DNA of 53,649 bases from a virus. This document shows positions 6,871 through 43,062 of the stretch, piece by piece (position 1 is the stretch's first letter; each line of letters opens with the position of its first letter). The position numbers and the translations under genes were made by a program. The notes beneath the pieces were generated by a model. The model was not told the DNA's origin, made no database searches, and saw only the letters and a list, made by a program, of their open reading frames with translations. The stretch spans positions 1-53,649 of the IMG/VR virus record IMGVR_UViG_3300013094_000065; one strand, written 5' to 3'.

Positions 6871-8718
6871 TTACTCCTTGTTATTAATATTTTTATAATC
6901 GCCTAACCTATCGCACTTGATTATCAATTTATTTAGTTCAGGCAGGTAAAGATATTCTATATGACTATTTAGTACCGTATTAACTGCATCAGTCAGTGTT
7001 TCTGATAATACATCTCCGGCTAAATTTAAACTTGTATTAAAAAGTACAGGAACACCGGTTTTTTTATAAAAAGCTTCAATTAGATCGTAATAATTTGGGT
7101 TATCTTCTCTAGATACAGTTTGAATTCGGCATGTGTTATCCACATGTGTAACTGCTGGAATTTGCTGTATTTTTTCTTTTTTAACATCCACGGCATACAT
7201 CATGAACGGGCTGGATTTTAATGTTTCCATTTCAAACCAGTTGTGTGCATGTTCTTCTAATACACTCCCGGCGAATGGCCTGAACCACTCTCTTCGTTTT
7301 ACTTTATTAACGATATCTTTGCCATCAATTCTTCGTGGATCAAACAGAATACTGCGATTTCCTAGCGCCCTTGGCCCGCCTTCGGACCGACCTTGAAATA
7401 AAGCAACAATATTTCCTTGATCAATCAAGTTAGCAACTGCGTGAGTAGTGGTATCTATTACACTAACAATCTCTTTTAATTCTTTTTTAACAGCATCTAA
7501 TTCTAAATAGGTTGGAGTAGTACCTAAGTATAATGATTTTACTGGCCTAATTGTCATATCTTTTGATTTTTTATGCCATATAAATTTAGCCAGGCCAATA
7601 GCAGTACCGCCATCATGCGAAATAGGATCAACGTAAAAGTTAATATTTGGAAAATGCTTTATAATTTTATAGTTTGCAACACAATTTAATCCATAACCTC
7701 CAGATATGACAACATTTGTTTCACCAGATAAATCAATGGCTTTTTGAATTAAGTTAATAACCTGTTTTTCAGTTTCTTGTTGTACTGCCCATGCTAAGTT
7801 TTTATCAACCCGACGGCATAACGAAGAATCGTGATGCCATTTTCTAACTTTTTCTTCAGTATCTGTTAACTCTAAGTACGGATATTGAGTAGAATCAATA
7901 TTTGCCGCTAGCGGATAGAATGGTATTAATAAATTTTTATTACCTTTGCCATTGATAAAAAATTCTGGAATATTCTCATCATATTTGCCATAAGGTGCCA
8001 ATCCCATTGTTTTGCCTGCGTCTATACCAGCAAATCCAAGATAGATAGTCACTGCTTCATAAGCCTTGACAATAGTAATAGATGGATCACATTCGTATAT
8101 TCCATTTACGTATCGTCTGTTTATTCCATCGCAATATCTTTTATGTAAAGGAATAAACTCACAAGGATACGAACATTTATAAATTGATTCTGTTTCAAAC
8201 CCACCTCCAATTCCACGACCTTGCTCATCGTACCATTCTTTATGTGACCCAGACCCGTCAACAACCACAGCAACAGCAGTTTTAAATCCAGATCCATAAA
8301 ATGCCGAAGAAGCATGACCCAAATGGTGCCCGTGCATCATTGGTGTAACTTTAACATTTTTATTAAATTTACGAACAATTGAAGAATAAGGATCCTCCCC
8401 TGTCCAAGATAGAGTTGGCAATTCTGTTTGTGCGCCACCAATTATAAATTCATCAATTGACCCAAGTTGAATTGCGTTCAACATGGCTCGAACTGGATTG
8501 CCGTCGTACTTCAAATGTGTATAGCGATCTTCTTCGCCATAGTAAATCAATTCACCATCAACCACCAATGCAGCTGACGCATTATGTCCGGGATTTATGG
8601 CCAAAATAGTATATGGTTTATTTTGATTTTTTTTAATTCCAGATGGTATTTTTTGGACGTGTGGCGTTTTTTGTTTTGTAATATCGATAATAGTGGGAGA
8701 TTTTAGAATTGGTAGCAT
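6871..8718 (-). CDS. Carbamoyltransferase, NodU/CmcH/TobZ family (copy A)
   Basis: The 615-aa length fits TobZ-like O-carbamoyltransferases. An N-terminal Kae1-like domain begins TILAINPGHNASAALV (His near residue 45), with the metal motif HHLGHASSAF near 131 and a VDGSGS loop. ISGGYGLNCVANYK follows near 330, then GRSEGGPRALGNRSILFDPR near 443, and the C-terminal part holds FRPFAGS and FNTSLN near 560. Family members use carbamoyl phosphate and ATP to carbamoylate hydroxyls on sugars or, in some phages, hydroxymethylated bases. All signature motifs are present, so activity is expected; the acceptor is unknown. It lies 10 bases after copy B with a weak Shine-Dalgarno. The first ~30 residues are divergent and Lys/Pro-rich. 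Confidence 0.9.
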   Translation of the reverse strand: MLPILKSPTIIDITKQKTPHVQKIPSGIKKNQNKPYTILAINPGHNASAALVVDGELIYYGEEDRYTHLKYDGNPVRAMLNAIQLGSIDEFIIGGAQTELPTLSWTGEDPYSSIVRKFNKNVKVTPMMHGHHLGHASSAFYGSGFKTAVAVVVDGSGSHKEWYDEQGRGIGGGFETESIYKCSYPCEFIPLHKRYCDGINRRYVNGIYECDPSITIVKAYEAVTIYLGFAGIDAGKTMGLAPYGKYDENIPEFFINGKGNKNLLIPFYPLAANIDSTQYPYLELTDTEEKVRKWHHDSSLCRRVDKNLAWAVQQETEKQVINLIQKAIDLSGETNVVISGGYGLNCVANYKIIKHFPNINFYVDPISHDGGTAIGLAKFIWHKKSKDMTIRPVKSLYLGTTPTYLELDAVKKELKEIVSVIDTTTHAVANLIDQGNIVALFQGRSEGGPRALGNRSILFDPRRIDGKDIVNKVKRREWFRPFAGSVLEEHAHNWFEMETLKSSPFMMYAVDVKKEKIQQIPAVTHVDNTCRIQTVSREDNPNYYDLIEAFYKKTGVPVLFNTSLNLAGDVLSETLTDAVNTVLNSHIEYLYLPELNKLIIKCDRLGDYKNINNKE

Positions 8719-8728
8719 AATTCAGCAA

Positions 8729-10528
8729 TTATATTGATATGGTCTTTACCAATTTTTTTATTTCGGGCAAGTACAGATATTTTATATGACTGTCTAGTAA
8801 AATGTTGATAGCATCACCTAATGTTTCAGCCAGTGGCTGTCCTGCCAAGTTCAAACTGGTATTGAATAATAATGGAACACCAGTTTTTTTATAAAAAACA
8901 TCAATAAGTTCATAATAATTTGGGTTATCTTCTCTAGATACAGTTTGAATTCGGCATGTGTTATCCACATGTGTAACTGCTGGAATTTGATCTATCTTGG
9001 AAGACTTAACATCCACAGCATACATCATGAACGGGCTGGATTTTAATGTTTCCATTTCGAACCAATCCCGGGCATGTTCTTCCATGACTGAACCAGCAAA
9101 TGGCCTGAACCACTCTCTTCGTTTTACTTTGTTAACAATATCTTTGCCATCGATTCTTCGTGGATCAAAAAGAATACTACGATTTCCAAGTGCTCTTGGT
9201 CCGGCTTCTGCGCGACCTTGAAATAAAGCAACAATATTTCCTTCACTAATCAACTCAGCAATTTCTTTTGAAGTAGCGTCTTTAAATTCTACAATACCTA
9301 ATAAATCTTTTTCAACAGATTTTATTAACGAATAGTCAGGAGGAACACTCAGGTATAATGATGTTACTGGTCTAATTGTGTGGTCTTGCGAACGTGTATA
9401 CCATGCTCTTTTTGCCAGTCCAATTGAAGTTCCCCCGTCATTTGATATTGGGTCAATGTAGAATTTAATATGCGGAAATTTTTTAATAAATTTGTAATTG
9501 GCTACACAATTTAATCCATACCCGCCAGATATGACAACATTTGTTTCACCAGAAAGATCAATAGCTGTTTGAATTAAATTAATCATTTGCTCTTCGGTTT
9601 CTTTTTGTACAGCCCAAGCTAAATTCTTTTCAACTGTACGGCATAGTGAAAAATCATTATGCCAATCTTTAATTGCCAACCTTTTATCCTTTAAATGTAG
9701 ATACGGGTATCTACTATCATCAATATATGCTCCCATTGGATATCTTGGTAAAATTAAATTTTTATTACCTTTGCCATTGATAAAAAATTCTGGAATATTC
9801 TCATCATATTTGCCATAAGGTGCTAACCCCATGGTTTTTCCTGCTTCGATGGCAGTAAAACCAAGATACTGGGTAACAGCTTCGTAAGATTTTACTATTG
9901 TGGTTGACGGATCCCATTCGTGTATTCCATCTACGTGTCTTGCGTTTACCCCATCAGAATATCGTTTATATAAAGGAGTAAATTTACAAGGATATGAACA
10001 TTTATAAATTGATTCTGTTTCAAATCCACCGGTAATTGATTCTTGTCGATCTGATCTAAATCCCTCTTTATACGAACCAGCTCCATCAACAATCACAGCA
10101 ACAGCAGTTTTAAATCCAGATCCATAAAATGCCGAAGAAGCATGCCCCAAATGGTGTGATCCAGCCATTTTTGTAACATGTACAAGTGGATTGAATTTAC
10201 GAACAATTGAAAAATAAGGGTCTTCTCCTGTCCAAGATAAAGTTGGCAATTTTGTTTCTGTACCGCCAATTATAAATTCATCAATTGGCCCAAGTTGAAT
10301 TGCATTCAACATGACTCGAACTGGATTTCCGTCATACTTGTAACGGGAGTATCGTTCTTCTTCGCCATAGTAAATCAATTCACCATCAACCACCAATGCA
10401 GCCGACGCATTATGTCCGGGATTTATGGCCAAAACAGCATATGGTTTATTCTGATTTTTTTTAATCTCAGATGTTTTCACTGGTTTCTTAATATCAATAA
10501 TACTAGAAGATTGAGAAACTGGTAACAT
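8729..10528 (-). CDS. Carbamoyltransferase, NodU/CmcH/TobZ family (copy B)
   Basis: The 599-aa paralogue of copies A and C has the same motif order: LAINPGHNASAALV near residue 35, HHLGHASSAFYGSG near 130, VDGAGSY, ISGGYGLNCVANYKF, GRAEAGPRALGNRSILFDPR, FRPFAGSVMEEHARDWFE and FNTSLNLAGQPL. The first three quarters are closest to copy A, including the same DNA over about 70 bases around 9760-9830. The C-terminal quarter shares long identical DNA with both A and C. It starts 3 bases after the copy C stop with no strong Shine-Dalgarno, so translational coupling is likely. One change in a conserved motif (EAGPRALG where A and C have EGGPRALG) could alter specificity. Confidence 0.9.
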   Translation of the reverse strand: MLPVSQSSSIIDIKKPVKTSEIKKNQNKPYAVLAINPGHNASAALVVDGELIYYGEEERYSRYKYDGNPVRVMLNAIQLGPIDEFIIGGTETKLPTLSWTGEDPYFSIVRKFNPLVHVTKMAGSHHLGHASSAFYGSGFKTAVAVIVDGAGSYKEGFRSDRQESITGGFETESIYKCSYPCKFTPLYKRYSDGVNARHVDGIHEWDPSTTIVKSYEAVTQYLGFTAIEAGKTMGLAPYGKYDENIPEFFINGKGNKNLILPRYPMGAYIDDSRYPYLHLKDKRLAIKDWHNDFSLCRTVEKNLAWAVQKETEEQMINLIQTAIDLSGETNVVISGGYGLNCVANYKFIKKFPHIKFYIDPISNDGGTSIGLAKRAWYTRSQDHTIRPVTSLYLSVPPDYSLIKSVEKDLLGIVEFKDATSKEIAELISEGNIVALFQGRAEAGPRALGNRSILFDPRRIDGKDIVNKVKRREWFRPFAGSVMEEHARDWFEMETLKSSPFMMYAVDVKSSKIDQIPAVTHVDNTCRIQTVSREDNPNYYELIDVFYKKTGVPLLFNTSLNLAGQPLAETLGDAINILLDSHIKYLYLPEIKKLVKTISI

Positions 10529-10531
10529 TTT

Positions 10532-12334
10532 TTAATTGGTATGAGTTGATACTTTCTTTACTAGTTGTTGTACTTCGGGCAAGTAAAGATATTCTATCTG
10601 ACTGTTTAATAAAATACCAACTGCATCAGCCAAGGTCTCAACTAATGGTTGTCCTGCCAAGTTCAAACTGGTATTGAATAATAATGGAACACCAGTTTTT
10701 TTATAAAAAGCTTCAATTAGATCGTAATAATTTGGGTTATCTTCTCTAGATACAGTTTGAATTCGGCATGTGTTATCCACATGTGTAACTGCTGGAATTT
10801 GTTCTGCTTTATCCGAGTTTACATCAACAGCATACATCATGAACGGGCTGGATTTTAATGTTTCCATTTCGAACCAATCCCGGGCATGTTCTTCCATGAC
10901 TGATCCAGCAAATGGTCTGAACCACTCTCTATGTTTAACCGCATTTACAATGTCTTTTCCGTCTTGTCTCCGCGGATCAAACAATATACTTCTATTACCC
11001 AATGCTCTCGGACCTCCTTCTGGACGTCCCTGAAATAAAGCAACAATATTTCCTTGATCAATCAAGTCTGCAATATCGTCAGAAGTTGTAGCATCGATAC
11101 TTAAAATACCATCCACTGTTTTCATTAAATGTTCTATTATTCCATAGTCGGGAGATAGTCCCAGATACATTGATTTTAATGGTTTGGGTTGAGTATCGCC
11201 AGAATAGATATGCCATGCGTGTTTTGCCAATCCAATAGCAGTACCGCCATCATGCGCAATAGGATCCACATAGATGTTGAGATTTGGAAATTGTTTAATA
11301 AATTTATAATTCGCAACACAATTTAACGCAAATCCGCCAGACAACACAATATTTGTTTCGCCGGTTTCAGTGGCAGCTTTTTCTATTAATCGCATGACCT
11401 GTTCTTCAGCTTCTTTCTGAATGTTGTATGCTATATTTTTGTCTTGATCTCTTGCCAAAGAGAAATCACGATGCCATTCCATTGGGTCAGTTATTCTAGC
11501 CAGATATGGGAAACGATTTTCATCAATAAAGGCACCCATGGGATACTGGGGAATTAGTAAATTTTTATTGCCTTTATTCTGTACAAAAAACATAGGAACA
11601 TCATTGTCATCAGTTCCGTATGGAGCTAACCCCATTGTTTTTCCGGCCTCAATAAATCCAAAACCCAAATAGTACGATACCGCTTCGTATGCTTTTGTAA
11701 TTGTTACAGCACTGTCAAATTCATCGACCTCATCTTTAAAATATGGGCTTGCCCCATCAGAATATCTTTTATAAACTGGAACAAATTCGTTGGGATATGC
11801 ACATGTATAAATTGATTCCGTTTCAAACCCACCGGTTTTGCGATCTCCGTCAAGAGTTTTGGTATAATAAGATCCGCTACCATCAACAATTACTGCGGCT
11901 GCAGTTTCAAACCCCGAACCGTAAAAAGCTGATGAGGCATGGCCAACATGATGTGTATCCATCATGAACGTTACTTTAACATTGGGATTAAATTTTCGAA
12001 CCAATGCAGTATACGGATCTTCACCAGTCCATTGCATTTGTGGTAGTTGCGGAACAGTTCCTCCAATTACTAATTCATTAATTGGACAATTCATGAGTGC
12101 GTGTAACATAGCACGGAACGGATTTCCGTCATATTTCATACGAGAAAATCGTTCTTCCTCGCCGTAAAACACAAGCTCTCCGTTGACAACCAGTGCCGCG
12201 GATCCATTGTGCCCGGGATTTATCGCCAGCACAGCATATTGGTCACTGCTGTTTTGTTCTACTGCCGCCGGTATTGGGCTGGAAGGCTGGTTTATTTGAG
12301 ATTCTTGGGATGCTGATGTTTTTCTTTTCGCCAC
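10532..12334 (-). CDS. Carbamoyltransferase, NodU/CmcH/TobZ family (copy C)
   Basis: The 600-aa enzyme is the most upstream and most divergent of the three. It has YAVLAINPGHNGSAALVVNG near residue 33, THHVGHASSAFYGSG near 130, VDGSGSYY, LSGGFALNCVANYKF, GRPEGGPRALGNRSILFDPR and FNTSLNLAGQPLVETLAD. The catalytic His, the HH-x2-H metal motif and the C-terminal carbamoyl-transfer motifs are intact. Its low-complexity first ~30 residues are encoded in a 92-base overlap with the end of the GT9 gene in another frame, which implies coupled expression. If the true start were an internal codon, the overlap would vanish but the conserved core would be kept. Confidence 0.9.
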   Translation of the reverse strand: MAKRKTSASQESQINQPSSPIPAAVEQNSSDQYAVLAINPGHNGSAALVVNGELVFYGEEERFSRMKYDGNPFRAMLHALMNCPINELVIGGTVPQLPQMQWTGEDPYTALVRKFNPNVKVTFMMDTHHVGHASSAFYGSGFETAAAVIVDGSGSYYTKTLDGDRKTGGFETESIYTCAYPNEFVPVYKRYSDGASPYFKDEVDEFDSAVTITKAYEAVSYYLGFGFIEAGKTMGLAPYGTDDNDVPMFFVQNKGNKNLLIPQYPMGAFIDENRFPYLARITDPMEWHRDFSLARDQDKNIAYNIQKEAEEQVMRLIEKAATETGETNIVLSGGFALNCVANYKFIKQFPNLNIYVDPIAHDGGTAIGLAKHAWHIYSGDTQPKPLKSMYLGLSPDYGIIEHLMKTVDGILSIDATTSDDIADLIDQGNIVALFQGRPEGGPRALGNRSILFDPRRQDGKDIVNAVKHREWFRPFAGSVMEEHARDWFEMETLKSSPFMMYAVDVNSDKAEQIPAVTHVDNTCRIQTVSREDNPNYYDLIEAFYKKTGVPLLFNTSLNLAGQPLVETLADAVGILLNSQIEYLYLPEVQQLVKKVSTHTN

Positions 12335-13268
12335 TTGAAGATGTCCTCTCTATATCTATTATAATTGAATCGTGAATTTTTGTCAACTCTTTATCAGTAA
12401 ATTTCATAGAACTTTCGTTCAACCGATTTGCTAACATTGAATCTAAACCTGTTAATCGAATTGGGCTATATTTTTTGTGTGATTTGTTTTCTATAATATG
12501 AAAAAAGTCTGGGTATGATGTATTAACTGGAAAAGTTGATCCAAAAATAACAGTTCCTGGAATATTGAATGCTCTTGCCAAGTGTTGCCCGAGACTGTCA
12601 CATCCAATGAAATAATCACACTCGCTTACCAGTGCAGCCCATTGTCTAATATCGCATACAAATTTGGCGGAATACTTATCACTCTTTAAATGATAATCTT
12701 GCTCTCCAAAGAATATAACATTGTAACGTGTTGCCAGTCTCATCATTAACGAAACATAGTCTGAACTACTCAGGCTACGAGCTTCGTCGTCAGAAACAGT
12801 GCCCTTGTCTTTATCAATTTTTGCGCCTCGACCAAAAGGTTGAAAAATAATTGTTTTTTGTTTTTTTTGTATTGCTTTAATATCAGCAATACTTTGTTTG
12901 GCAAAAGTTGTTTCGGCAATACTTAGCACCATTTTGGGAGGCAGTAAATCAGAATGATCCGTGGTGTTATTAATTTGTTGATCTATTGCTTGTCCCAGTG
13001 ATATTTTTTGATTAAAATATCCGGGAATTCGATAGGGCTCAACGGTAATTATTTCATCCATCTGAGTAATTAACGTATCAAAAATACCCTTTGTATCAAT
13101 TCCAAAGGTTCTATCTTGTAATTCAGGAATACCCCAATACAAATAATCCCATGCCGGTATTAGAATATACCACTCTTCATCTGGGTGTAATTTGGCATAC
13201 TTGAGAAATGCTGGTATTGCAGCAATAATCCTCCCGGCACCGCCGTCGAGATAAAACATCTTCTTCAT
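12243..13268 (-). CDS. Glycosyltransferase family 9 (heptosyltransferase-like)
   Basis: The 341-aa protein begins MKKMFYLDGGAGRIIAAIPA and has the GT-B layout of ADP-heptose:LPS heptosyltransferases. The C-terminal nucleotide-binding half has IIFQPFGRGAK near residue 140, VIFFGEQDYH near 185, and CDYFIGCDSLGQHLARAF then PGTVIFGSTFPVN near 213-242. The DS-x2-QHLA segment corresponds to the family's DSg..HlA motif. Members add sugars to lipopolysaccharide or similar glycans. AAGGAAG precedes the ATG and a CTAAATA element lies 40 bases upstream, making this the first gene of the carbamoyltransferase operon. The Ser/Lys-rich last ~33 residues are encoded in the overlap with copy C. The acceptor is unknown. 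Confidence 0.82.
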   Translation of the reverse strand: MKKMFYLDGGAGRIIAAIPAFLKYAKLHPDEEWYILIPAWDYLYWGIPELQDRTFGIDTKGIFDTLITQMDEIITVEPYRIPGYFNQKISLGQAIDQQINNTTDHSDLLPPKMVLSIAETTFAKQSIADIKAIQKKQKTIIFQPFGRGAKIDKDKGTVSDDEARSLSSSDYVSLMMRLATRYNVIFFGEQDYHLKSDKYSAKFVCDIRQWAALVSECDYFIGCDSLGQHLARAFNIPGTVIFGSTFPVNTSYPDFFHIIENKSHKKYSPIRLTGLDSMLANRLNESSMKFTDKELTKIHDSIIIDIERTSSSGEKKNISIPRISNKPAFQPNTGGSRTKQQ

Positions 13269-13347: not shown

Positions 13348-16300
13348 TTATGTCGGAATACCTTGGGTTTGTTCATAATGACACTGATAATCTGCGCGAG
13401 GTTGGAGAATCTCTTTTTTAGGTTCTTTAACTCGCTCCACAATAACTCTACCAGTATGATCGGTAGCATCATTATCCACCATGAACTGATCGTGTCGTTC
13501 AGCAATCACCATCCAGGACACAGTGGCAACAGAATCAGGATTTTTACATAATATTGTCAACTGATTTCCGTCTAGTGTTCCTTTAACTTCGTCCCAATCT
13601 GATTCATTTGATGTAAAAATTCTTGCGTTTACACACAGCTCCTCGAAGGTTCCGCTGGTCATTCCCGATTCTTGATCTACATCAATTACTGCAATTCCTT
13701 GTGACAACACCGCAGACCCAGAATATATTATATCTGCAAACGGTGATTCAACCGACATATGAATAAGTTCATGTGTATCGTTAAGATCCGGGTGTGGATG
13801 ATCGATACGGAAGGACTTTGCGTTAGCGTAAAATACTCCACTTAAACAAGCGTTACCGCCATTGCACAGCACAAAACTGTATCTTATACCAGTTTGAACC
13901 CAGTTTAACCCGTTACCGTCAAGTTCAGTGTGCCACGAGCAATAGCCGTTACTATCAAATTCAAGCTTTGGACTACACCCAGATACACGAAGCTCACCAG
14001 CACCACCATTTCCATATACCATGAAAGCACGACCCCCGCCAAAGAACCCACCAGGACTACTTGTTCCAATTCCTCCACCAGCACACCCAATTGTACAACC
14101 AGGTGTGCAAACTCCTCCACCAGCACATAACCATCCACCAGCATACATATAACCGCCGGCTATGATACAGCTACTAGCGCACATATAACCAGGCGTACAA
14201 ACTCCAGAACCAGCACACAGCCAATTACTGGTATACGAATAACCATCAGCTATAAGGCAGCCATTGGTGTGTATCATGTTAAGCCCGCAGATACATTGGT
14301 ATGAACAGATATATCCAGCCGCAATGAATCCGTTGTTGGTACAGATACAATTTGGAGCATACAGACACTGAGCCTGGACAAAACATCCTACACACATATA
14401 ACCAGGCGTGCAAACTCCAGAACCAGCACACAGCCAATTACTGGTATACGAATAACCATCAGCTATAAGGCAGCCATTGGTGTGTATCATGTTAAGCCCG
14501 CAGATACATTGGTATGAACAGAAATAACCCGCTGATATCATTCCACCGTTGGTACAGATACATGTGGTAAAATATCCACAACATGACATTACATAATAGC
14601 AAGCACAAATGTATGGAGCAATCACACAAATACCGGCACAACTATATGCACCCGCGTAAACGCAACATCCGGCACATAGATACAACGCACTGATTGATTG
14701 AGCAGAACATATACAGTTATAATAATAGTGTCCTGCGACTGTGTTCGTGTTATTGTATACCCAAGAACTGTTCAGTGGGCCAAAACAATACCAGTAACTG
14801 CAGCTACACATATAAAGATTACCGCCACTGTTTTGCAAAGAAACCCCACCTTGTATACATATCAATCCACAACTACATAACCCACTACCACCATATATCC
14901 AGCCATAGGCCTGTACGTAGTTACCAGTACACATGTAATTGCTAGAGAGTACGCATCCCGATGAATTTAGGCCACAGGATGTTTGTATACATCCAGTGGC
15001 ACATATATAACCGCCTGTGCAAACTCCAGAACCAGCACACAGCCAATTACCGGTATACGAATAACCAGCGGCAACCACACAACCCTGTGAACATACCATG
15101 CTACCAGCAAGCACATAAGTAAAACCGGTTACTTGTGGCGCACCCACACAAATACTTGAACAAATACATCCGGAAGACAACACACAACAACAAGAACAAA
15201 CATTGACGCCGTTGAAAAATGCCCCAGCTCCTGAAACTACACACAATGTTGATGTACATACACACTGGTTTGCTATTACACACCCGCATGTGACAAAGCA
15301 ACAGTTACTACAAGATCCGCCACCTATGGCATAGCTATATGGAGAATAGTGGCATGAACTAGTACAAATCATACCAGCTGAACATACTCCGCCACAAGCA
15401 TACATCAACCCACCAGAGGTAATTGCCCCTTGACCGCACATGTTACCGGCGTAATCAAAGCACCAAAACACAGTTGGGTAACTGTCATTTCCGCCCACTG
15501 CAATAAATGCTGCACCCCAGCCACCGTTGCTAGGGCGATATTGTCCAATAGTCAAATGCTGCCTATATCCATATCCGGACAGTGTAGATATTTGATGGTA
15601 TCCGGGAATGAACCAACAGCCTGAGTTTGATGGTGACGGATCGGCTATTTCAATAGAACCAAAGGTGGCACAGCATAAACAATTGACTGCGGTGGGAGCA
15701 GTGATACGCAAATTATTACAAGAACATAAAAATGCTCCGTAAATACCTCCGGCAGCCTGTATAGTACTGCCTGCACACATCACACTGCTTGTACAAATAC
15801 CACCTGTAGCTAATATACAACAGTTTACATAAAAATTTGATCCGGGCACACTACAACAAGCATATAAAGCGCAACACGCACAGTACGTACATGTTGAACA
15901 ACCATTCAAACAACCCCAAAATGACGCAGAACATACCGCAGTAGTACCGCATATGACCGGACTAATCATACATGTGCCAGCACAACTGTATGCGCCTGCG
16001 TAGATACAGCAGTTGGCACATATATATCCTGCTGAACATAGATAGCAGGTAGCATAGATACAGGGAGAATATAAACAGGTAGCAGAGCATATCATGGCAC
16101 CGGCATTCACGCCGCCCGAGACAACAACTGAACAGTTTACATTAAAATTTGATCCGGGTACGCTACAATAAGCATATAAAGCGCAACACGCACAACAAGC
16201 AGTTGTGGCGCATCCAATTAGTGATCCGCACAGGGTTGGGGCAGATATAACACAACTTGCGCAAAAACTAGCACCGCATCCGGTGGCGCCTGACCCACAG

Positions 16301-17313
16301 ATACATATTGTGTTACTGTTTGCGACAAACATATTGAGATATCCGGATTGCGTCCAGCTTAAACACAACCCAGTACCGCAACAGGTGCCCATGACAATTA
16401 ATGAAGTTTGGGCTTGTACGCATGATGAACCGCATACAACGGGAGAAATAACACAAGTGCCGGCACTCACATAGTTTGCCGCGCAGATACAACAAGCAGA
16501 ACATATTCCAATTACACCGCACACAACATTGCCCATTACACAATTGCCGGCACAAATAATTCCGCCTGTACACCACCCACCTACCGAGCATCCCCAACAT
16601 TGTGGATACACATATGTGCCTATTACACAAGAACCAGAACAAATCATGCCAGCCGATGCAACGCAACAGGCACTACAGATATTTCCAGTTTCGGAACATA
16701 CATATGTACAGGAAATTATACCGCCAGATTGTGTACAAATACATCCAAGATACGCTTGAGGAGATACTATACATCCGCCGGCACATACACAACACGGTGT
16801 TGTTATGTTGCCTGCACACGCACATATCGATGTACCAGCAATGATACAGGTACCGGCAGTAACACAAGTACCAGCGGTAACACAAGTACCAGCGGTAACT
16901 GCGCCACTGCTACAAATAACGGCGCTACACAAACATGTAGATGCTTTGACAATTGTGGTACAAACAGATCCGTTGATCTGAAGTTTATCAGTGACATTAT
17001 CAGTACCGGTTCCTAGTAATACGTTGCCAGAATATTGAGCAATTTTTACCAACCCAGTGTTTATAACTTCAATGCTCGGGATACCAGATATATCGTTTGC
17101 TGAGAATATTGTTCCCGACATTGAATTGGCAATAGAAAACAATTGCGCTGTAGAACCTTCAAACGAGAGAGTACCTGAATTTTGCGGGTATGTTCTTAAT
17201 GTTATATTTTGCGGAGCAGTAGTAGCATTTGCCCCAGAAAATACAATTTTGGGTACGTCGGAAGAACTTCCTATATTAGGAGTAATTACGAGGTTCTGGT
17301 CGGTCAATGCCAT
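13348..17313 (-). CDS. Cysteine-rich repeat fibre protein (1321 aa, about 160 Cys)
   Basis: Residues 1-117 form a cysteine-free beta-rich head (MALTDQNLVITPNIGSSSDV). Residues ~118-1065 are imperfect repeats of the type VCTPGYMCASSCIIAGGYMY, with Cys at about one residue in six and almost no charged residues. A C-terminal region from ~1066 resumes normal composition and holds KSFRIDHPHPDLNDTHEL and VESPFADIIYSG, a domain found at the ends of phage fibres and shared with the 1632-aa neighbour. In related fibres the repeat positions hold Ala, Ser or Thr. Normal sequence at both ends in the same frame argues against a frame error. A CTAAATA promoter lies 24 bases upstream. Likely a virion appendage; the role of the cysteines is unknown. 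Confidence 0.8.
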   Translation of the reverse strand: MALTDQNLVITPNIGSSSDVPKIVFSGANATTAPQNITLRTYPQNSGTLSFEGSTAQLFSIANSMSGTIFSANDISGIPSIEVINTGLVKIAQYSGNVLLGTGTDNVTDKLQINGSVCTTIVKASTCLCSAVICSSGAVTAGTCVTAGTCVTAGTCIIAGTSICACAGNITTPCCVCAGGCIVSPQAYLGCICTQSGGIISCTYVCSETGNICSACCVASAGMICSGSCVIGTYVYPQCWGCSVGGWCTGGIICAGNCVMGNVVCGVIGICSACCICAANYVSAGTCVISPVVCGSSCVQAQTSLIVMGTCCGTGLCLSWTQSGYLNMFVANSNTICICGSGATGCGASFCASCVISAPTLCGSLIGCATTACCACCALYAYCSVPGSNFNVNCSVVVSGGVNAGAMICSATCLYSPCIYATCYLCSAGYICANCCIYAGAYSCAGTCMISPVICGTTAVCSASFWGCLNGCSTCTYCACCALYACCSVPGSNFYVNCCILATGGICTSSVMCAGSTIQAAGGIYGAFLCSCNNLRITAPTAVNCLCCATFGSIEIADPSPSNSGCWFIPGYHQISTLSGYGYRQHLTIGQYRPSNGGWGAAFIAVGGNDSYPTVFWCFDYAGNMCGQGAITSGGLMYACGGVCSAGMICTSSCHYSPYSYAIGGGSCSNCCFVTCGCVIANQCVCTSTLCVVSGAGAFFNGVNVCSCCCVLSSGCICSSICVGAPQVTGFTYVLAGSMVCSQGCVVAAGYSYTGNWLCAGSGVCTGGYICATGCIQTSCGLNSSGCVLSSNYMCTGNYVQAYGWIYGGSGLCSCGLICIQGGVSLQNSGGNLYMCSCSYWYCFGPLNSSWVYNNTNTVAGHYYYNCICSAQSISALYLCAGCCVYAGAYSCAGICVIAPYICACYYVMSCCGYFTTCICTNGGMISAGYFCSYQCICGLNMIHTNGCLIADGYSYTSNWLCAGSGVCTPGYMCVGCFVQAQCLYAPNCICTNNGFIAAGYICSYQCICGLNMIHTNGCLIADGYSYTSNWLCAGSGVCTPGYMCASSCIIAGGYMYAGGWLCAGGGVCTPGCTIGCAGGGIGTSSPGGFFGGGRAFMVYGNGGAGELRVSGCSPKLEFDSNGYCSWHTELDGNGLNWVQTGIRYSFVLCNGGNACLSGVFYANAKSFRIDHPHPDLNDTHELIHMSVESPFADIIYSGSAVLSQGIAVIDVDQESGMTSGTFEELCVNARIFTSNESDWDEVKGTLDGNQLTILCKNPDSVATVSWMVIAERHDQFMVDNDATDHTGRVIVERVKEPKKEILQPRADYQCHYEQTQGIPT
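14181..14523. repeat. Near-identical 130-base direct repeats, 213 bases apart
   Basis: Bases 14181-14310 and 14394-14523 are nearly identical; the difference I noticed is GTA versus GTG in an otherwise shared run. The spacing equals 71 codons, so the repeat unit is duplicated in frame inside the cysteine-rich fibre gene. A shorter, more diverged copy of part of the unit lies near 15005-15070. Confidence 0.8.
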
Positions 17314-17350: not shown

Positions 17351-18022
17351 CTAGATACCGTATCGACCTCTGAGGGCATAGTAATTTTGATATGCTTCTG
17401 TTGCGGATAAAGCACGATTATACATTTTTGCCACCGGCATAAGCCCGGCCATGTATCCTGTGTATACCCCCACATTTAATGCTGAAGAAAAAGACGAACT
17501 ATAATTTACTAGGGTATAGGTGGAAGTAGCAACTTGTGCTCCGTTTATATACAAAACAGAAACACCGTTATAAAAAGTTCCAATAGCATGATACCATGTA
17601 AAATTTGTTAGACCCGATGGACTGGTAAGATCTCCGCCAGTCCCGCTGATAATGTTTTCCCAACGTAGTGTACCATTGCCCGCGGAGTAAAAATTTATAT
17701 ACGTGGGGGAGGTTGAAAAGCTCATAAATCCCTGTGCTCTGCTTTGTATGTCATTAGAGTTAAATATCATCTCCATAGACACCCCACCAGATAGATTTAG
17801 AGTAACCGTTGGGGTAACAACATATCCAGAGGTTCCATTAAGTGCCATAGATCCTCCATTTGTGGCATTGTATGATATACCACCTGTTAATGTTCCAACA
17901 ACACCACTACCTGTTAAATCAGTCCAAACGCTACCGCTTCCGGGATAGGATTTGGTATTAGCGGCATCATATGCCAATATCAATCCACTTGTTGCTATAC
18001 TTGGCCCTATTGCTATACTCAT
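17351..18022 (-). CDS. LamG / concanavalin-like lectin fold protein
   Basis: The 223-aa protein begins with SIATSGLILAYDAANTKSYP and contains WTDLTGSG, GGSMALNGTSGYV, SMEMIFNSND, WYHAIGTFYNGVSVLYINGA and MAGLMPVAKMYNRALSATEA. This is the ordered motif set of LamG-like jelly-roll domains common in phage and environmental adhesion proteins (L-ily-AnN.sYpg, W.DlsG, W.hva.t..g....YvNG, yNRaLs..Ei). Such domains bind carbohydrate or protein surfaces, so a receptor-binding or fibre tip role is inferred. GGAG precedes the ATG and the gene starts 2 bases after the stop of the 1632-aa fibre gene, so the two are probably translated as a pair. Confidence 0.82.
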   Translation of the reverse strand: MSIAIGPSIATSGLILAYDAANTKSYPGSGSVWTDLTGSGVVGTLTGGISYNATNGGSMALNGTSGYVVTPTVTLNLSGGVSMEMIFNSNDIQSRAQGFMSFSTSPTYINFYSAGNGTLRWENIISGTGGDLTSPSGLTNFTWYHAIGTFYNGVSVLYINGAQVATSTYTLVNYSSSFSSALNVGVYTGYMAGLMPVAKMYNRALSATEAYQNYYALRGRYGI

Positions 18023-18024
18023 AC

Positions 18025-21000
18025 TTAAAACTCCACTTTCAAATCGTCTATATCTTTACGTATACCGGTAAATGACCAGTAGAATTTATATTCTTTTCTA
18101 TCAAAAAATCCCTGTTTACATCTGACGGTAAACTCGTCCTTGTCTACATTTATATTTTCAACCCAAAGTACTTTACTGTGTTGTATATTAGTTATCTGAA
18201 CTTGCACACCTTGTTGTTTACATAATCCATGAATATAATCTGGTAATTTTACAACACACTTGCCATTGGTTAAGATGTCTTCACCAGTTAATCTTATTCC
18301 ATGATATGGTGATTCTAAACTGCCATAGCATAATTGCATTCCTTCTTTAGTTGGATGATCAATTACAAAAGATTTAGTTGTGGCTGCAAAACTACCATTG
18401 ACTTGAAGTGTATATGTTGTATTAGTGGATGTGCCGATACCAACCTGACCGGTCGAATTAATATCCAATGCTCTTGTAGCTCCACCGGTTCCAACGAACC
18501 AGGTATGAGACAATGCGTAGTTTGACCAAGAAATATATTGAGCTGTACTTCTATTATACGAATTAAAGTATGGACCACTACCAACTGCTGAACCTGACGT
18601 AAAGAATTCAATACCGGCTGCTCCACCAGCACTAACCACTAACGGTCCTTGAGGATTTGTAGAGCCAATACCAACATACCCGGCGGATGTAATGCGCACT
18701 GATTCTGAACGAGTTGCTATATTTCTAAATTGAATATTTCCACCAGAACCGCCAATGTTGTCTATGAATAAATTACCGCTACCGCCATAAAAGATTTCGT
18801 ATCCATCAGACCCCGTAAAAGACAACCCTAAATTTGCCCGGGTGGTGTTGACAATTTGAATTCCGCTGCCAGTCCCAAAAGTAGGTGTAGTTGTACCAAT
18901 ACCAACATTACCGTTAGTTAGGATAACTACGGAATTATTACTTGAATTAGTAACAAATCCTATAGGAGCATAAAGTGATGTGGCTCTGTTATAAGATAAA
19001 AAATCTACGCCATTAATTCCTGTATAATTGCCAGCTGGAGCAATTTCCAATCCCACAGCTCCGCTGTTTGAAACTACTAATTTATTCTGTGGATTTGTAG
19101 TACCAATGCCAACAACATCTGTACTTGGGTTAATAATAAAACTACTTGTGGTATACAAAGATTGTGCGGTTGGGATTGCGTTGTTTGCGCTGACAAATGT
19201 TGGATAATAACTTGCGTTGGTGGCAGTAGACTGTGTCTTGACTTGAGAAACCCCACCAGAAAATGCCCCAACAAATGTTGTAGCGGTAACAATAGTACTG
19301 AAATATCCCCCACCTTCTACACTTAGCTTTGCGCCCTGCTGTGGGGAGGTCCAGTTGGCACTGATCTGTAGGTTCCCATTAATATCCAGATTTATTACAG
19401 TCCCACCACTTATTTGTGTCTGTAATCCGCCTAATGTATTAGTTACGTCGATATAACTGGTACCGCCAGATGTACCAAAACTCATACGATTTGCACTACC
19501 GGATTGTCTTGAATAAATCGGGCCATTCACATCTAATATGTTACCGCCGCCATATACATCAGTATCAGCAGGAGCACTTGTACCTATACCAAATTTGTTA
19601 CCGGTTGGAATATAAACTAATCCGCTGGGACCGTTGGCTTCTAATGTAGCCAATCCAGTTGAAGTATTGGCAAATACCATGTACTGCGGCACTGAACTAC
19701 TTGATAATTGTGTTAAATTAACTGCCGAAACTGTAACAGTAGACCATGTTGGTGGTGAGCTGGATCCTTGACTTTGTAAATATTGCCCGGAGATTCCATA
19801 ACTTGAAGTTGACCCAACTCCCAAAGAACCCGAAAAGTTGAGAGTATTAGTTATTGTTGTAATACCGCCAACATACAATCCACCTCCAATCCCAACCCCA
19901 CCTACTACTTGTAAAGCACCTGTAGTTGTACTTGTGCTTGATAGCGCACTGTTAACAAATAATTGCCCACTTGCAGTAGTAATATTAGTTATTATTAAAT
20001 TAGGAGTACTTAGTTGGCTAACTGACAGCGTGTAAGTTAGCGAGCTTGTGGCGGTAGTTATACCGCTATTATATTGGAATAACAGTTGGCCTGCTGAAAA
20101 TCCGCTAATATTTGATGCAGTAGTTGCAGTTCCTGTTAAATTACCAATAAAAGTTGTAGCAGTAACATCTCCGTTGATATAAGCACCACCATTAATACTC
20201 AACAATGCGCCTTGCTGTTGATTATAGCTGGTAGACGTTGGCGACATTGTTATGCCACCTATGGCATTTATATTAAATGCCGCACCACTATATTCAACCA
20301 ACCCGCCGCTGTTGTTGTCTTTAATATATTGACCGTTAGCAAAGTTAATAGGAGTTGTTTGGGCAAGGCTAACGGTTCCAACAACACTTAATGTTCCTGT
20401 TACAGTGAATATAGACCCATTCCATGTTAAATTATTACTGCCGCTTAACAATCCACCTGTGCCAGCATAAGTAACTTGATTAGTAGTTAATCCTGTGTCA
20501 GTAATATTGGCTGCTTTTAATCCAGTTGCCGCACTGCCGCCAACTACCCAGTTTGTTGTACCATCAAACAAGAAACTTGCATATGGCGTAGAAGTTGTGC
20601 CAATTTCAATACCGCTACTTGCAGCCAGTAATGCAGTAGTACTTGCTGTTGCTAATGCTAAAACTTTATCGCCAGTTAAAATAGCAGTACTGTTGACATA
20701 TGTTTGTGTTCCGTCAACATATAAATCACCAGTTAAGTATAAACTATTTGTAGCCGCATCGAAGGTAAATCCTGTACTAGCAAATGCAGTTTGGTTAGAC
20801 CCTTCTGCCGCAACCATAACAGGATATAATGTGTTTGATGTAGTATTAGTAGCATTAATAATGTTGCTTGGACCAGCACTGCCTGAATATCCAATACTTC
20901 CAGTATACCCCATAGACCCAGCATAGCCTTGAGATCCCGAATAGCCCTGTGATCCGGCATATCCAATACTACCAGCATAACCAATGCTTCCGGTATATCC

Positions 21001-22923
21001 TGACGATCCAGCATATCCAATACTACCAGTGTAGCCTATCGTGCCTTGCGATCCGGTATATCCTGACGATCCGGCATATCCGATACTACCTGCATATCCG
21101 ATACTACCTGCATATCCAATACTACCAGCATATCCAATGCTACCGGTATATCCCTGTATGCCCTGTGAGCCGGTATAACCCACACTTCCCCAGTAACCAG
21201 CACTGCCACTATATCCCTGTATGCCTTGCGATCCAGTATAACCCACACTTCCCCAGTAACCAGCACTGCCACTATATCCCTGTATGCCTTGTGAGCCGGT
21301 ATAACCCACACTTCCCCAGTAACCAGCACTGCCATTATACCCGGCTGATCCACTATATCCCTGTATGCCTTGTGAGCCGGTATAACCCACACTTCCCCAG
21401 TAACCAGCACTGCCGGAATATCCAATACTACCGGTATAACCCACACTTCCCCAGTAACCAGCACTGCCATTATACCCAGCTGATCCGGTGTAGCCTTGTA
21501 TGCCCTGTGATCCAGTATAACCCACACTTCCCCAATAACCAGCACTGCCATTATACCCAGCTGATCCACTATATCCCTGTATGCCTTGCGATCCAGTATA
21601 ACCCACACTTCCCCAGTAACCAGCACTGCCGGTATATCCTACACTGCCATCATATCCGGCAGTACCTCGACTACCAGTATATCCTTGACTACCGGTATAT
21701 CCTACACTACCACTATATCCATATCCAACAGTAATTCCATTGATAGTAATCGGTCCAGATACATTTAATGCTCCGCCAATACCAACACCGCCGCTAACAA
21801 CCAACGCACCAGTAGTGGTCGAAATTGATGTTGTTGTATTAGTAATTGTAAAGATATCTGGTGTGGTTATTAGTGTTGTTGTAATTGTGGTATACTGTAT
21901 GTCTAATTCTTGAGCAATAATTTTACCACCGACATATAAACTTCCACCAATACCAACCCCACCAGTTACTTGTAACGCACCTGTATTTGTGGCAGAGGCA
22001 TTTGTATTATTGGTAATTGTTACTACGTTATTGGTTGTAGAACCTCGACTGGTAATACTTTGTAATGTGCTTGTATTCCATATTGTAACAGCGCCAGTTG
22101 AAGTATTAATTGCAGTATCTGTGCCAGCGGTAATACTAGTAACATATCCAGTACCAGTGCCAGTTCCGGTTAGTACAGTGTTGCCATTGCTATAAATTGT
22201 ACCAGCGTAAATTGCTCCTTGTATGCCAACTCCACCAGTTACAGTTAATGCCCCAGATGTTGTACTAGTGCTTGCTGTACTATTAGTAATATTAATAGAA
22301 TTTGTAGTTGTAAATCCTCGATCAGTTACCAGTTGCAATGTATCAGTATTGCTAATTGAAATAGTACCTGTACTTGTACTTACGCTTATACCGGTACTAC
22401 CTGTAGTTAGTGTCCGTACACCCAAATTGTTAATAGTAAATGATGTAGCAGTACCTGTGCTTATTACGCTAGATACACCAATATATGTACTTCCAGCGGG
22501 AGTGACACTGGTAACAACTCTGTTGTTATTATCATATAATGAATTGGCATAGATGGGATTTGTAGTACTATTGCCTCTATTTGTAATAGTTTGTAGTGTG
22601 CTTGTATTCCAAACTACAACAGGTCCAGTAGATGTGCTAACCGCAGTATCAGTGCCAGCAGTTAAACTTGTGACACCATAGGCGCCAATTGTTGCAGTTG
22701 TAAGGGCCCGAGCATTATTATCATATACTGCGGATGCGTATAAATTTCCACCAACACCAACTCCTCCAGAAATTATTGCCGCGCCTGTTGTGGTAGATGT
22801 ACTTGTTGCCGTTGATGTGGCATTAAATGTTGTGACCGTGGTAGCTTGTGCTACTACGTTTCGATTGCCATCCACGAATAGTGTGCCAGCAATCGATACC
22901 CCGTCTTTGACCTTAAACGTCAT
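18025..22923 (-). CDS. Long tail fibre-like protein with collagen-like repeat (1632 aa)
   Basis: The N-terminal ~390 residues carry repeats of the type TGAL-x-V-x-GGVGIGG, shared with the neighbouring genes. Residues ~396-681 are an uninterrupted Gly-X-Y tract built on GYTGS, with no proline until its last triplet. After a beta-repeat region come VGIGTTNPQNKLVV-type repeats (~1270-1510), a common fibre motif, and the C-terminal domain with KSFVIDHPTKEG, ESPYHGIRL and FYWSFTGIRKDI, related to the end of the cysteine-rich fibre. No enzymatic motif is visible. It is most likely a trimeric virion appendage. GAGG lies before the ATG. Long antisense frames over the repeat tract are composition artefacts. 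Confidence 0.82.
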   Translation of the reverse strand: MTFKVKDGVSIAGTLFVDGNRNVVAQATTVTTFNATSTATSTSTTTGAAIISGGVGVGGNLYASAVYDNNARALTTATIGAYGVTSLTAGTDTAVSTSTGPVVVWNTSTLQTITNRGNSTTNPIYANSLYDNNNRVVTSVTPAGSTYIGVSSVISTGTATSFTINNLGVRTLTTGSTGISVSTSTGTISISNTDTLQLVTDRGFTTTNSINITNSTASTSTTSGALTVTGGVGIQGAIYAGTIYSNGNTVLTGTGTGTGYVTSITAGTDTAINTSTGAVTIWNTSTLQSITSRGSTTNNVVTITNNTNASATNTGALQVTGGVGIGGSLYVGGKIIAQELDIQYTTITTTLITTPDIFTITNTTTSISTTTGALVVSGGVGIGGALNVSGPITINGITVGYGYSGSVGYTGSQGYTGSRGTAGYDGSVGYTGSAGYWGSVGYTGSQGIQGYSGSAGYNGSAGYWGSVGYTGSQGIQGYTGSAGYNGSAGYWGSVGYTGSIGYSGSAGYWGSVGYTGSQGIQGYSGSAGYNGSAGYWGSVGYTGSQGIQGYSGSAGYWGSVGYTGSQGIQGYSGSAGYWGSVGYTGSQGIQGYTGSIGYAGSIGYAGSIGYAGSIGYAGSSGYTGSQGTIGYTGSIGYAGSSGYTGSIGYAGSIGYAGSQGYSGSQGYAGSMGYTGSIGYSGSAGPSNIINATNTTSNTLYPVMVAAEGSNQTAFASTGFTFDAATNSLYLTGDLYVDGTQTYVNSTAILTGDKVLALATASTTALLAASSGIEIGTTSTPYASFLFDGTTNWVVGGSAATGLKAANITDTGLTTNQVTYAGTGGLLSGSNNLTWNGSIFTVTGTLSVVGTVSLAQTTPINFANGQYIKDNNSGGLVEYSGAAFNINAIGGITMSPTSTSYNQQQGALLSINGGAYINGDVTATTFIGNLTGTATTASNISGFSAGQLLFQYNSGITTATSSLTYTLSVSQLSTPNLIITNITTASGQLFVNSALSSTSTTTGALQVVGGVGIGGGLYVGGITTITNTLNFSGSLGVGSTSSYGISGQYLQSQGSSSPPTWSTVTVSAVNLTQLSSSSVPQYMVFANTSTGLATLEANGPSGLVYIPTGNKFGIGTSAPADTDVYGGGNILDVNGPIYSRQSGSANRMSFGTSGGTSYIDVTNTLGGLQTQISGGTVINLDINGNLQISANWTSPQQGAKLSVEGGGYFSTIVTATTFVGAFSGGVSQVKTQSTATNASYYPTFVSANNAIPTAQSLYTTSSFIINPSTDVVGIGTTNPQNKLVVSNSGAVGLEIAPAGNYTGINGVDFLSYNRATSLYAPIGFVTNSSNNSVVILTNGNVGIGTTTPTFGTGSGIQIVNTTRANLGLSFTGSDGYEIFYGGSGNLFIDNIGGSGGNIQFRNIATRSESVRITSAGYVGIGSTNPQGPLVVSAGGAAGIEFFTSGSAVGSGPYFNSYNRSTAQYISWSNYALSHTWFVGTGGATRALDINSTGQVGIGTSTNTTYTLQVNGSFAATTKSFVIDHPTKEGMQLCYGSLESPYHGIRLTGEDILTNGKCVVKLPDYIHGLCKQQGVQVQITNIQHSKVLWVENINVDKDEFTVRCKQGFFDRKEYKFYWSFTGIRKDIDDLKVEF
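20880..21735 (-). repeat. Collagen-like Gly-X-Y tract, about 94 triplets
   Basis: The tract encodes alternating Gly-Tyr-(T/S/A/W/N) and Gly-Ser-(V/A/Q/I) triplets. A longer cassette of the form AGYWGSVGYTGS, usually followed by QGIQGY, recurs seven times, and this is visible in DNA as tandem repeats with interchangeable spacers. Gly is kept at every third residue throughout. Pro appears only at the final AGPSN. Confidence 0.9.
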
Positions 22924-41883: not shown

Positions 41884-43062
41884 TTATTGGAAACTTACGT
41901 TTGCGCTAGTGATAGCAACTTTACCTAAGTAGTCAGCTGCATTACCTAGAGAAGAAGCAGTGTTGCTTAATTCTACGTAACCGTAACGTGTTAGGAAGCC
42001 AACTACTGGCTCAAATGTTGCTGGATCTAGAACAACACCAGAACTCATTAAAGGAATATATGGGCAATAGAACGCTGCAGCATCTGCTTCGCTAGAACCT
42101 TTATATCCAACCAATACTTGGTTGATGTCTTGTCCTGTGTCGCTCATGTAAGCGTCAACATAAACACGCATAGCGCCATTCAATGTACCAACAAACTTGG
42201 TGTTTGTAGGAGCTTCAAATGTACCTTCTGTTGTACGAGCAAAAGCGCTTGTAGTAGCAGATTGCAGAATTGTCAATGCTTGATTAGAAACAACAGCCCA
42301 GTTACCTGCGCCACGACGTGTACGTTGAGCAATCAAGTTAGCTGTGCGGTTGATTTGAATAGCTAATGCAGCATGTTCGTCACCAACGAAAGTAGCTGTA
42401 CCAGAAACTAAACTTTGATCGTATGTTTGTTCAACACTTGCCAAGCTACGTAGGCTAGCTAGGATTTCTTGATCAATTTCAGTTGTGATTTCTTGTGCTA
42501 AAGCAGCCATGATTTCTGCTTCGATGTCAATGCCTTGTTGGCTTTGTGCATCTTGTGCAGCTTCAAAAGTCCAGCGAGCGCTTAGTTTACGTGACTTAGC
42601 TTCTACTGGGCTCTTTAAGATTTGGATACTCATACGCTTGCCTGGTTGACCCTCAAGCAAACTTGTTGTTGAAGCACCAGGTGTAGTATCAGTATTGTTA
42701 CCGCTATAAGCACTAGCAATCTTGAACGGACTCAATGCTTCCTCACCTGCTGTAACGTTATCGCCAGAATCAGCATAACGAACACGCAATGTGTGGATTT
42801 GGCCAACTGGACCAGTCATTGGTTGTACACCAATGATTTCGTTGGCAATAACTGTAGGCATTACACGACGGATAACAGGTAGAATAACACGGTTAAGTGT
42901 TGCTACGTTACCAGCACTTGTTGCACCAGCAGTTGCGCTCTCAGCCAAATACTTGCGAGTGTTTTCTAAGCAAACTTGCATAGAAGCACGACGAGTACCA
43001 GATAGGCCTTCAAGCAGAGCTTCTTTGGTCTCTGACCATCTTTCATTTAATAGTTGTGACAT
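41884..43062 (-). CDS. 23: Major capsid protein gp23
   Basis: The 392-aa protein has gp23 hallmarks: LNRVILPVIRRVMPTVIANE, IIGVQPMTGPVGQIHTLRVR, KSPVEAKSRKLSARWTFEAA, LAQEITTEIDQEIL, and the C-terminal VVLDPATFEPVVGFLTRYGY. It forms the hexamers of the prolate head. The N-terminal prohead peptide probably ends at YLAE (Glu41) before SATAG, matching the L-x-E cleavage rule of the gp21 protease. It is shorter than T4 gp23 (521 aa), as is usual for marine relatives. AAGGAG lies 7 bases upstream and a strong terminator follows. Confidence 0.96.
   Translation of the reverse strand: MSQLLNERWSETKEALLEGLSGTRRASMQVCLENTRKYLAESATAGATSAGNVATLNRVILPVIRRVMPTVIANEIIGVQPMTGPVGQIHTLRVRYADSGDNVTAGEEALSPFKIASAYSGNNTDTTPGASTTSLLEGQPGKRMSIQILKSPVEAKSRKLSARWTFEAAQDAQSQQGIDIEAEIMAALAQEITTEIDQEILASLRSLASVEQTYDQSLVSGTATFVGDEHAALAIQINRTANLIAQRTRRGAGNWAVVSNQALTILQSATTSAFARTTEGTFEAPTNTKFVGTLNGAMRVYVDAYMSDTGQDINQVLVGYKGSSEADAAAFYCPYIPLMSSGVVLDPATFEPVVGFLTRYGYVELSNTASSLGNAADYLGKVAITSANVSFQ

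Follow-up and report, generated by a model that had tools for sequence, protein, structure and literature searches.

Cysteine-rich tail-fibre-like proteins of aquatic phages are linked to a GT9-like glycosyltransferase that may modify their cysteines

Results

A cysteine-rich fibre protein with fibre-type ends

The window, a 53,649-nucleotide viral contig (positions 1 to 53,649 of IMG/VR record IMGVR_UViG_3300013094_000065), encodes a tail-fibre-like protein with 160 cysteines in 1321 residues (12.1%), read in a single open frame, next to genes for a GT9-like glycosyltransferase and three NodU/TobZ-type carbamoyltransferases (Table 1). The remaining open reading frames (ORFs) of the fibre block contain 0–0.9% Cys and the content of this protein therefore lies far outside chance. 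The original prediction, made from the letters alone, had placed ~150 of ~160 Cys within residues ~118–1065 and described this repeat as poor in charged residues. Counts and borders were correct: 150 of the 160 Cys fall in residues 118–1065, of which Cys makes up 16%, and only 11 of the 948 core residues (1.2%) are Lys, Arg, Asp or Glu. The core also contains 102 Ser and 67 Thr. Spacings of the kind described (C-x-C, CC and C-x(3-5)-C) do occur; among Cys-Cys distances lag 6 is enriched (1.5-fold) and lags 1, 3 and 5 are depleted. A further claim, that neighbouring fibres share the repeat rhythm with Ala, Ser or Thr at these places, gained no support from alignment, which was not significant (best E 0.007).

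Table 1 Features of the window and homologues of the cysteine-rich fibre
Feature	Record	Coordinates	Strand	Basis or size
Cys-rich tail-fibre-like protein, 1321 residues, 160 Cys	Window	13348..17313	-	ORF and composition; homologues L002, L027, L040
N-terminal domain, residues 1-117, ordinary composition, common to Cys-free phage fibres	Window	16963..17313	-	Sequence similarity
Cys-rich repeat core, residues 118-1065, 150 Cys, 11 charged residues	Window	14119..16962	-	Composition, alignment to L002
C-terminal cap, residues 1156-1321 and stop	Window	13348..13848	-	Homology to S-TIM5, P-SSM2 fibre C-terminal domain
GT9-like (heptosyltransferase-fold) glycosyltransferase, putative modifier of fibre Cys	Window	12243..13268	-	PHROG 8954; Pfam GT9 just below cut-off; AlphaFold2 and Foldseek
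NodU/TobZ-type carbamoyltransferase 1	Window	10532..12334	-	Pfam Carbam_trans_N/C; TobZ in PDB, E ~1e-48
NodU/TobZ-type carbamoyltransferase 2	Window	8729..10528	-	Pfam Carbam_trans_N/C
NodU/TobZ-type carbamoyltransferase 3	Window	6871..8718	-	Pfam Carbam_trans_N/C
Fibre homologue	L002	3859-10062		2067 residues, 232 Cys
Fibre homologue	L027	6339-8330	-	664 residues, 86 Cys
Fibre homologue	L040	3-3302		at least 1100 residues, 88 Cys

Both ends of the protein match phage fibre domains in the same frame, as predicted. Residues 1–118 are of ordinary composition and similar to other phage fibre proteins; relatives of this domain in four loci (L006-L008, L011) share ~57% identity and the matching ORF has 0 Cys. 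Residues 1156–1317 match the C-terminal fibre domain of cyanophages S-TIM5 and P-SSM2, and in the homologues L002, L027 and L040 this cap is swapped for a Peptidase_S74 chaperone. These terminal domains, common to annotated phage fibres, together with the location in a tail gene block, mark the protein as a probable phage tail fibre. It is like Peptidase_S74 or cyanophage-capped tail fibres in its N-terminal domain, C-terminal caps and fibre-cluster position, but unlike them in having a Cys-rich core nearly devoid of charged residues. A sequence search of the PDB with the fibre gave no match, and an AlphaFold2 model of residues 118–560 (pLDDT 30, pTM 0.17) showed no confident fold.

The three homologues, with 86–232 Cys each, were retrieved through the fibre or its Cys pattern, independently of the enzyme; of the Cys DNA patterns used, the looser returned chance matches only and the tighter returned L027 and L002 along with chance matches in other genes. 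The cores of the window fibre and L002 are 72% identical over 805 aligned columns. Of the columns with Cys in either protein, 111/139 (80%) are retained, a proportion that, shared with Trp, is the highest of all residues and exceeds those of Gly (67%), Ala (57%), Ser (38%) and Thr (37%), while single Cys are gained in 16 columns and lost in 12. Cys changes comprise 38 synonymous and 28 non-synonymous cases, and 4-fold sites differ at 53%. A frameshift or assembly artefact is ruled out by the retention of Cys columns in L002 and by the excess of synonymous over non-synonymous changes at Cys. Because Cys are retained in L002 despite 53% divergence at 4-fold sites, and because the ends are fibre-type, the window fibre is a real fibre-type protein under selection for its Cys. 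The homologues, the fibre-type ends and the positional conservation, as opposed to random Cys turnover, thus support the original prediction of an unusual, undescribed fibre in which the Cys matter.

A GT9-like enzyme and carbamoyltransferases adjoin the fibre

In all four Cys-repeat fibre loci (the window, L002, L027 and L040) the fibre is followed by the GT9-like gene and one or more carbamoyltransferase genes. The GT9-like proteins of these loci are 330–350 residues long with a weak GT9 match, and 1–3 NodU/TobZ-like carbamoyltransferases lie beside them. The window has three tandem paralogues of ~600 residues each (6871-12334), where most other loci seen have one. Carbam_trans_N and Carbam_trans_C both score above their cut-offs in the window enzymes, a full two-domain match (PF02543/PF16861) to the NodU/TobZ O-carbamoyltransferases; unlike known members of that family, they adjoin a GT9-like enzyme and a Cys-rich fibre. 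In six other loci (L041, L047, L048, L051, L095, L117) sulfotransferase-like genes (SGLPRSGSTLL motif) and other transferase-like genes, assigned by eye, adjoin the GT9-like enzyme, perhaps for further glycan decoration.

An AlphaFold2 model of the GT9-like enzyme, built with 62 sequences, reached a pLDDT of 91. The best Foldseek matches in the PDB were Escherichia coli WaaF (9e-11), TibC (6e-10), a Veillonella GT9 protein and WaaC (3e-9), with TM values of 0.5–0.6 at 8–15% identity, and the modelled GT-B fold is closest to those of ADP-heptose transferases. A sequence search of the PDB with the enzyme profile gave no match. In an hhalign profile alignment with E. coli WaaF, the position of the catalytic Asp of the G-D motif is occupied by Arg, which is invariant in 62/62 family members, while the D-S and H of the nucleotide-site motif are retained. 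The replacement of the catalytic base is a tentative reading because the hhalign probability was low; a thiol acceptor may be able to do without this Asp.

A close parallel is offered by the bacterial autotransporter heptosyltransferases (BAHT; TibC/TibA, AAH/AIDA-I), of which TibC heptosylates serines of a β-helical repeat adhesin, with Asp110 as the candidate catalytic base (PMC4358343). The phage enzyme, GT9-like in fold as they are, adjoins a repetitive fibre and is here proposed to add many sugars to it. It differs in belonging to a phage rather than an autotransporter system, in the Cys-rich nature of the neighbouring protein, in the Asp-to-Arg replacement, and in lacking the N-terminal β-barrel, as the model begins in the GT domain, and the four-Cys iron finger, as the family alignment contains no invariant Cys. 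Were the enzyme to act on Ser and Thr of the same fibre as BAHT enzymes do on autotransporters, the Cys would have a separate role. This is the strongest rival to the S-glycosylation proposed below, being favoured by the close match to TibC, a Ser O-heptosyltransferase, and by the abundance of Ser and Thr in the core. We nevertheless consider it unlikely, since the proteins beside the enzyme are marked by Cys, Ser and Thr columns are poorly retained relative to Cys columns, and the catalytic Asp is, on the tentative alignment, replaced.

The enzyme is linked to cysteine-rich ORFs across phage groups

ORFs were classed as Cys-rich if they held at least 12 Cys in 120 residues and were not overlapped by a longer ORF. 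A scan by enzyme alignment yielded 80 loci, of which 49 have a Cys-rich ORF, 48 upstream and 1 downstream; the median distance of the upstream ORF to the enzyme is ~0.5 kb and the two are nearly always directly adjacent. Where at least 4 kb of upstream sequence was present, a Cys-rich ORF was found in 41/59 loci, and in 34/43 of those with a carbamoyltransferase. By comparison, a Cys-rich ORF was present in 0/78 control loci, or 0/45 of those of at least 9 kb; these loci, from related phages, lack the enzyme and were anchored on a tail-sheath-stabiliser-like gene found in that phage group. The Fisher p of ~5e-15 for enzyme versus control long loci is indicative only because the scans had different anchors and many contigs are related. 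A scan of genome contigs made after the rule was fixed found Cys-rich ORFs at 7/7 loci (6 distinct). When 101 enzymes were placed in a tree, all major branches, the deepest included, contained members with the Cys-rich label, and a few labels of “none” are due solely to the 9-kb distance filter, as for L046 with its 134-Cys fibre. The carbamoyltransferase alone was rejected as an explanation of the link, as the 140 phage records that it matches greatly outnumber the carriers of the enzyme; 7 Cys-rich loci have no carbamoyltransferase in the stretch retrieved. Contig G003 also holds a 266-residue ORF with 33 Cys (131596-132393) that is distant from its GT9-like gene.

The pair of enzyme and carbamoyltransferase is also present in cyanophages P-SSM2, S-CAM1, S-CAM3, S-SSM7 and Sf-FS3 and in marine single-cell viruses, where the proteins upstream are Cys-rich, with 24–36 Cys in 260–360 residues and, in one case, 73 Cys in 758 residues. 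Whole genomes provide a control that is cleaner than the locus scans. In those of P-SSM2, S-SSM7 and S-CAM3 the sole Cys-rich ORFs (2, 3 and 3, respectively) lie within ~4 kb upstream of the enzyme, and the whole genomes of S-TIM54, P-SSM4 and S-SM2, which are without the enzyme, contain no Cys-rich ORF. Searches by tblastn with two query proteins found cyanophage Cys-rich proteins only in records carrying the enzyme. Distant relatives of the enzyme (26–30% identity) in Aeromonas phage HJ05 and Vibrio phages SBP1 and D505 likewise have a Cys-rich gene adjacent, and the pairing recurs in unrelated podoviruses.

Several observations weigh against the reading that the enzyme serves Cys-rich proteins as a heptosyltransferase. 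The window enzyme scores 20.5 bits against Pfam PF01075, below the curated cut-off of 22. Of the 59 enzyme loci whose upstream sequence spans at least 4 kb, 18 have no upstream Cys-rich ORF (at least one of these, L060, has a Cys-rich ORF downstream), and a second enzyme copy in contig G001 has none nearby. Conversely, cyanophage S-SKS1, without the enzyme, has a phosphoheptose isomerase and a 133-residue ORF with 12 Cys, just at the threshold, and L010, a 114-kb contig without detectable enzyme, has fibres with 2.5–3.2% Cys. Finally, not every control locus extends to the fibre region. The two Cys-bearing fibres of L010 (7899-14841) carry G-x-x-AG repeats, and this contig was rejected as an intermediate, its Cys sitting in a different repeat.

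Cysteine, and not a single fold, is the common trait

The 93 Cys-rich proteins fall into ~40 BLASTP clusters with no detectable similarity between clusters. The Cys-rich proteins beside the enzyme in cyanophages and marine single-cell viruses do not detectably resemble the window fibre. Some of them match Gly_rich_2 and most have no match of any kind, while a Vibrio tail protein combines a Phage_Tail_Tip domain with a helical-looking Cys-rich stretch. Because these dissimilar clusters include Gly-rich as well as helical-looking proteins, the shared trait is Cys. In 44 β-roll-like repeats from 4 proteins, two of them duplicates, Cys occurs exclusively at variable positions, with 0/44 at each conserved Ala, Ile or Gly position. 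Pooled over 29 representative proteins, Cys spacing is near random (observed/expected 0.87–1.08 for lags 1–12). This pattern fits modified surface residues better than a common structural role.

The original prediction had suggested disulfides, metal binding or attachment to thiols on host surfaces, roles for which we found no support, as the trait tracks the glycosyltransferase; it had not linked the fibre to that neighbouring gene. Disulfides formed after lysis could produce an oxidised, cross-linked and very stable fibre, comparable to beetle antifreeze β-helices, with the glycosyltransferase unrelated. The high Cys content and conserved positions would suit such a fibre, and seawater is oxidising. 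Against this, Cys counts are odd in 37 of the 93 proteins (some of these ORFs being truncated), single Cys are gained and lost between the window fibre and L002, and the regular spacing and even pairing of a disulfide-bonded β-solenoid were not found, lag 6 being regular in some families only. Nor would disulfides explain why Cys-rich proteins that are unrelated to each other should be linked to a single glycosyltransferase family, and we judge this account improbable. Metal binding (Fe, Zn or Cu), giving a metal-stabilised or metal-carrying fibre, leaves the linkage equally unexplained. The Cys density is metallothionein-like and iron in phage tails has been proposed, but the 29 representative proteins show neither fixed spacings nor the enrichment of CxC (observed/expected 1.07) or CxxC (1.01) seen in metallothionein-like proteins, which makes this role very improbable indeed.

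Heptose genes accompany the enzyme in cyanophages

Phosphoheptose isomerase was found in all four complete enzyme-carrying cyanophages tested, and the annotated clusters of these phages contain heptose-kinase, nucleotidyltransferase and epimerase genes. Sullivan et al. 2010 listed the cluster as lipopolysaccharide (LPS) genes of unknown use, without mention of cysteine (PMC3037559). On that view the enzyme and carbamoyltransferases would remodel host LPS or another host glycan, and their proximity to adhesins, a common siting, would reflect a general host-interaction cluster. However, the LPS of marine Synechococcus is without heptose (PMC4515613), the pairing with Cys-rich genes recurs in unrelated podoviruses, and the heptose cluster's nucleotide-sugar epimerase is present in S-SM2, which has neither the enzyme nor a Cys-rich ORF; the epimerase alone therefore does not predict Cys-rich proteins. 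Remodelling of host glycans thus seems quite improbable to us. Among genes of the heptose cluster, cupin-like genes in L034 (18225-18581) and L035 (23015-23416) are annotated as cysteine dioxygenase, a curious annotation beside Cys-rich proteins; they probably encode a sugar cupin.

Neither the Vibrio and Aeromonas phages tested nor the large contigs G001-G005 yielded a detectable phosphoheptose isomerase. Vibrio and Aeromonas hosts are expected to make ADP-heptose. The host of the window phage may likewise supply it, because the major capsid protein of the window (41884-43062) is closest to those of large T4-like phages of proteobacteria (Phosso, CBB and GAP32, 68–70%). Judging by this capsid similarity, the full genome is probably much larger than the 53.6-kb contig, which would be a fragment of it.

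Discussion

We propose that the window fibre is a tail-fibre adhesin of the virion whose Cys would be sugar acceptor sites. The GT9-like enzyme would attach a sugar, which is most likely heptose donated by ADP-heptose, to many Cys thiols (S-glycosylation), and the adjacent carbamoyltransferases would carbamoylate hydroxyls of the Cys-linked sugar. The product would be a charge-poor fibre under tens to hundreds of S-linked sugars, a coat that would solubilise and shield the fibre and shape receptor binding during adsorption. Such a dense coat could account for the solubility of a core so rich in Cys and so poor in charge. Given the conservation of the Cys, their co-occurrence with the enzyme over unrelated proteins and phage groups, and the heptosyltransferase fold, we regard S-glycosylation of the fibre Cys by this enzyme, with carbamoylation of the sugar, as fairly probable. 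The wider proposal is evenly balanced in our view: across many tailed phages that infect aquatic bacteria and cyanobacteria, a dedicated GT9-like enzyme would place (carbamoylated) heptose on tens to hundreds of adhesin Cys. This would be a fold-independent S-hyperglycosylation of virus particles, for which cyanophages would bring their own ADP-heptose pathway, the sugar being absent from their hosts.

Glycocins are small peptides that carry one or two modified sites and depend on a different enzyme family. The phage system as proposed here would resemble glycocins such as sublancin and pallidocin, with S-glycosyltransferases such as SunS, in having a co-encoded dedicated enzyme and sugar on Cys sulphur (PMC6405829), while its proteins hold up to 232 Cys per chain. 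In the literature searched we found no report tying Cys-rich phage adhesins to a glycosyltransferase, nothing on Cys-rich cyanophage tail proteins, and nothing on Cys S-glycosyltransferases together with heptosyltransferases, which suggests that the coating of fibres by sugars via Cys sulphur would be a previously undescribed protein decoration.

If the proposal holds, cultured cyanophages with long-published genomes would harbour a new viral protein modification. This modification would account for phage heptose genes that hosts do not need, so far discussed as LPS genes or “stuffer DNA” (PMC3037559), mark receptor-facing fibre proteins and provide a source of new S-glycosyltransferases for protein engineering. 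Should the acceptor not be Cys, the association of Cys-rich tail proteins with a single enzyme family would still be a strong unexplained regularity. S-glycosides are resistant to most glycosidases, which would be an advantage for a virion during its wait in open water.

Directly upstream of the Cys-rich fibre, the window encodes a 223-residue Laminin_G_3 / ConA-like lectin protein (17351-18022), and the L002 fibre is likewise preceded by similar-looking proteins. Next in the window is a fibre of 1632 residues (18025-22923) that contains collagen-like repeats as well as numerous short tandem repeats, and a 2826-residue fibre has a Phycobilisome Pfam match.

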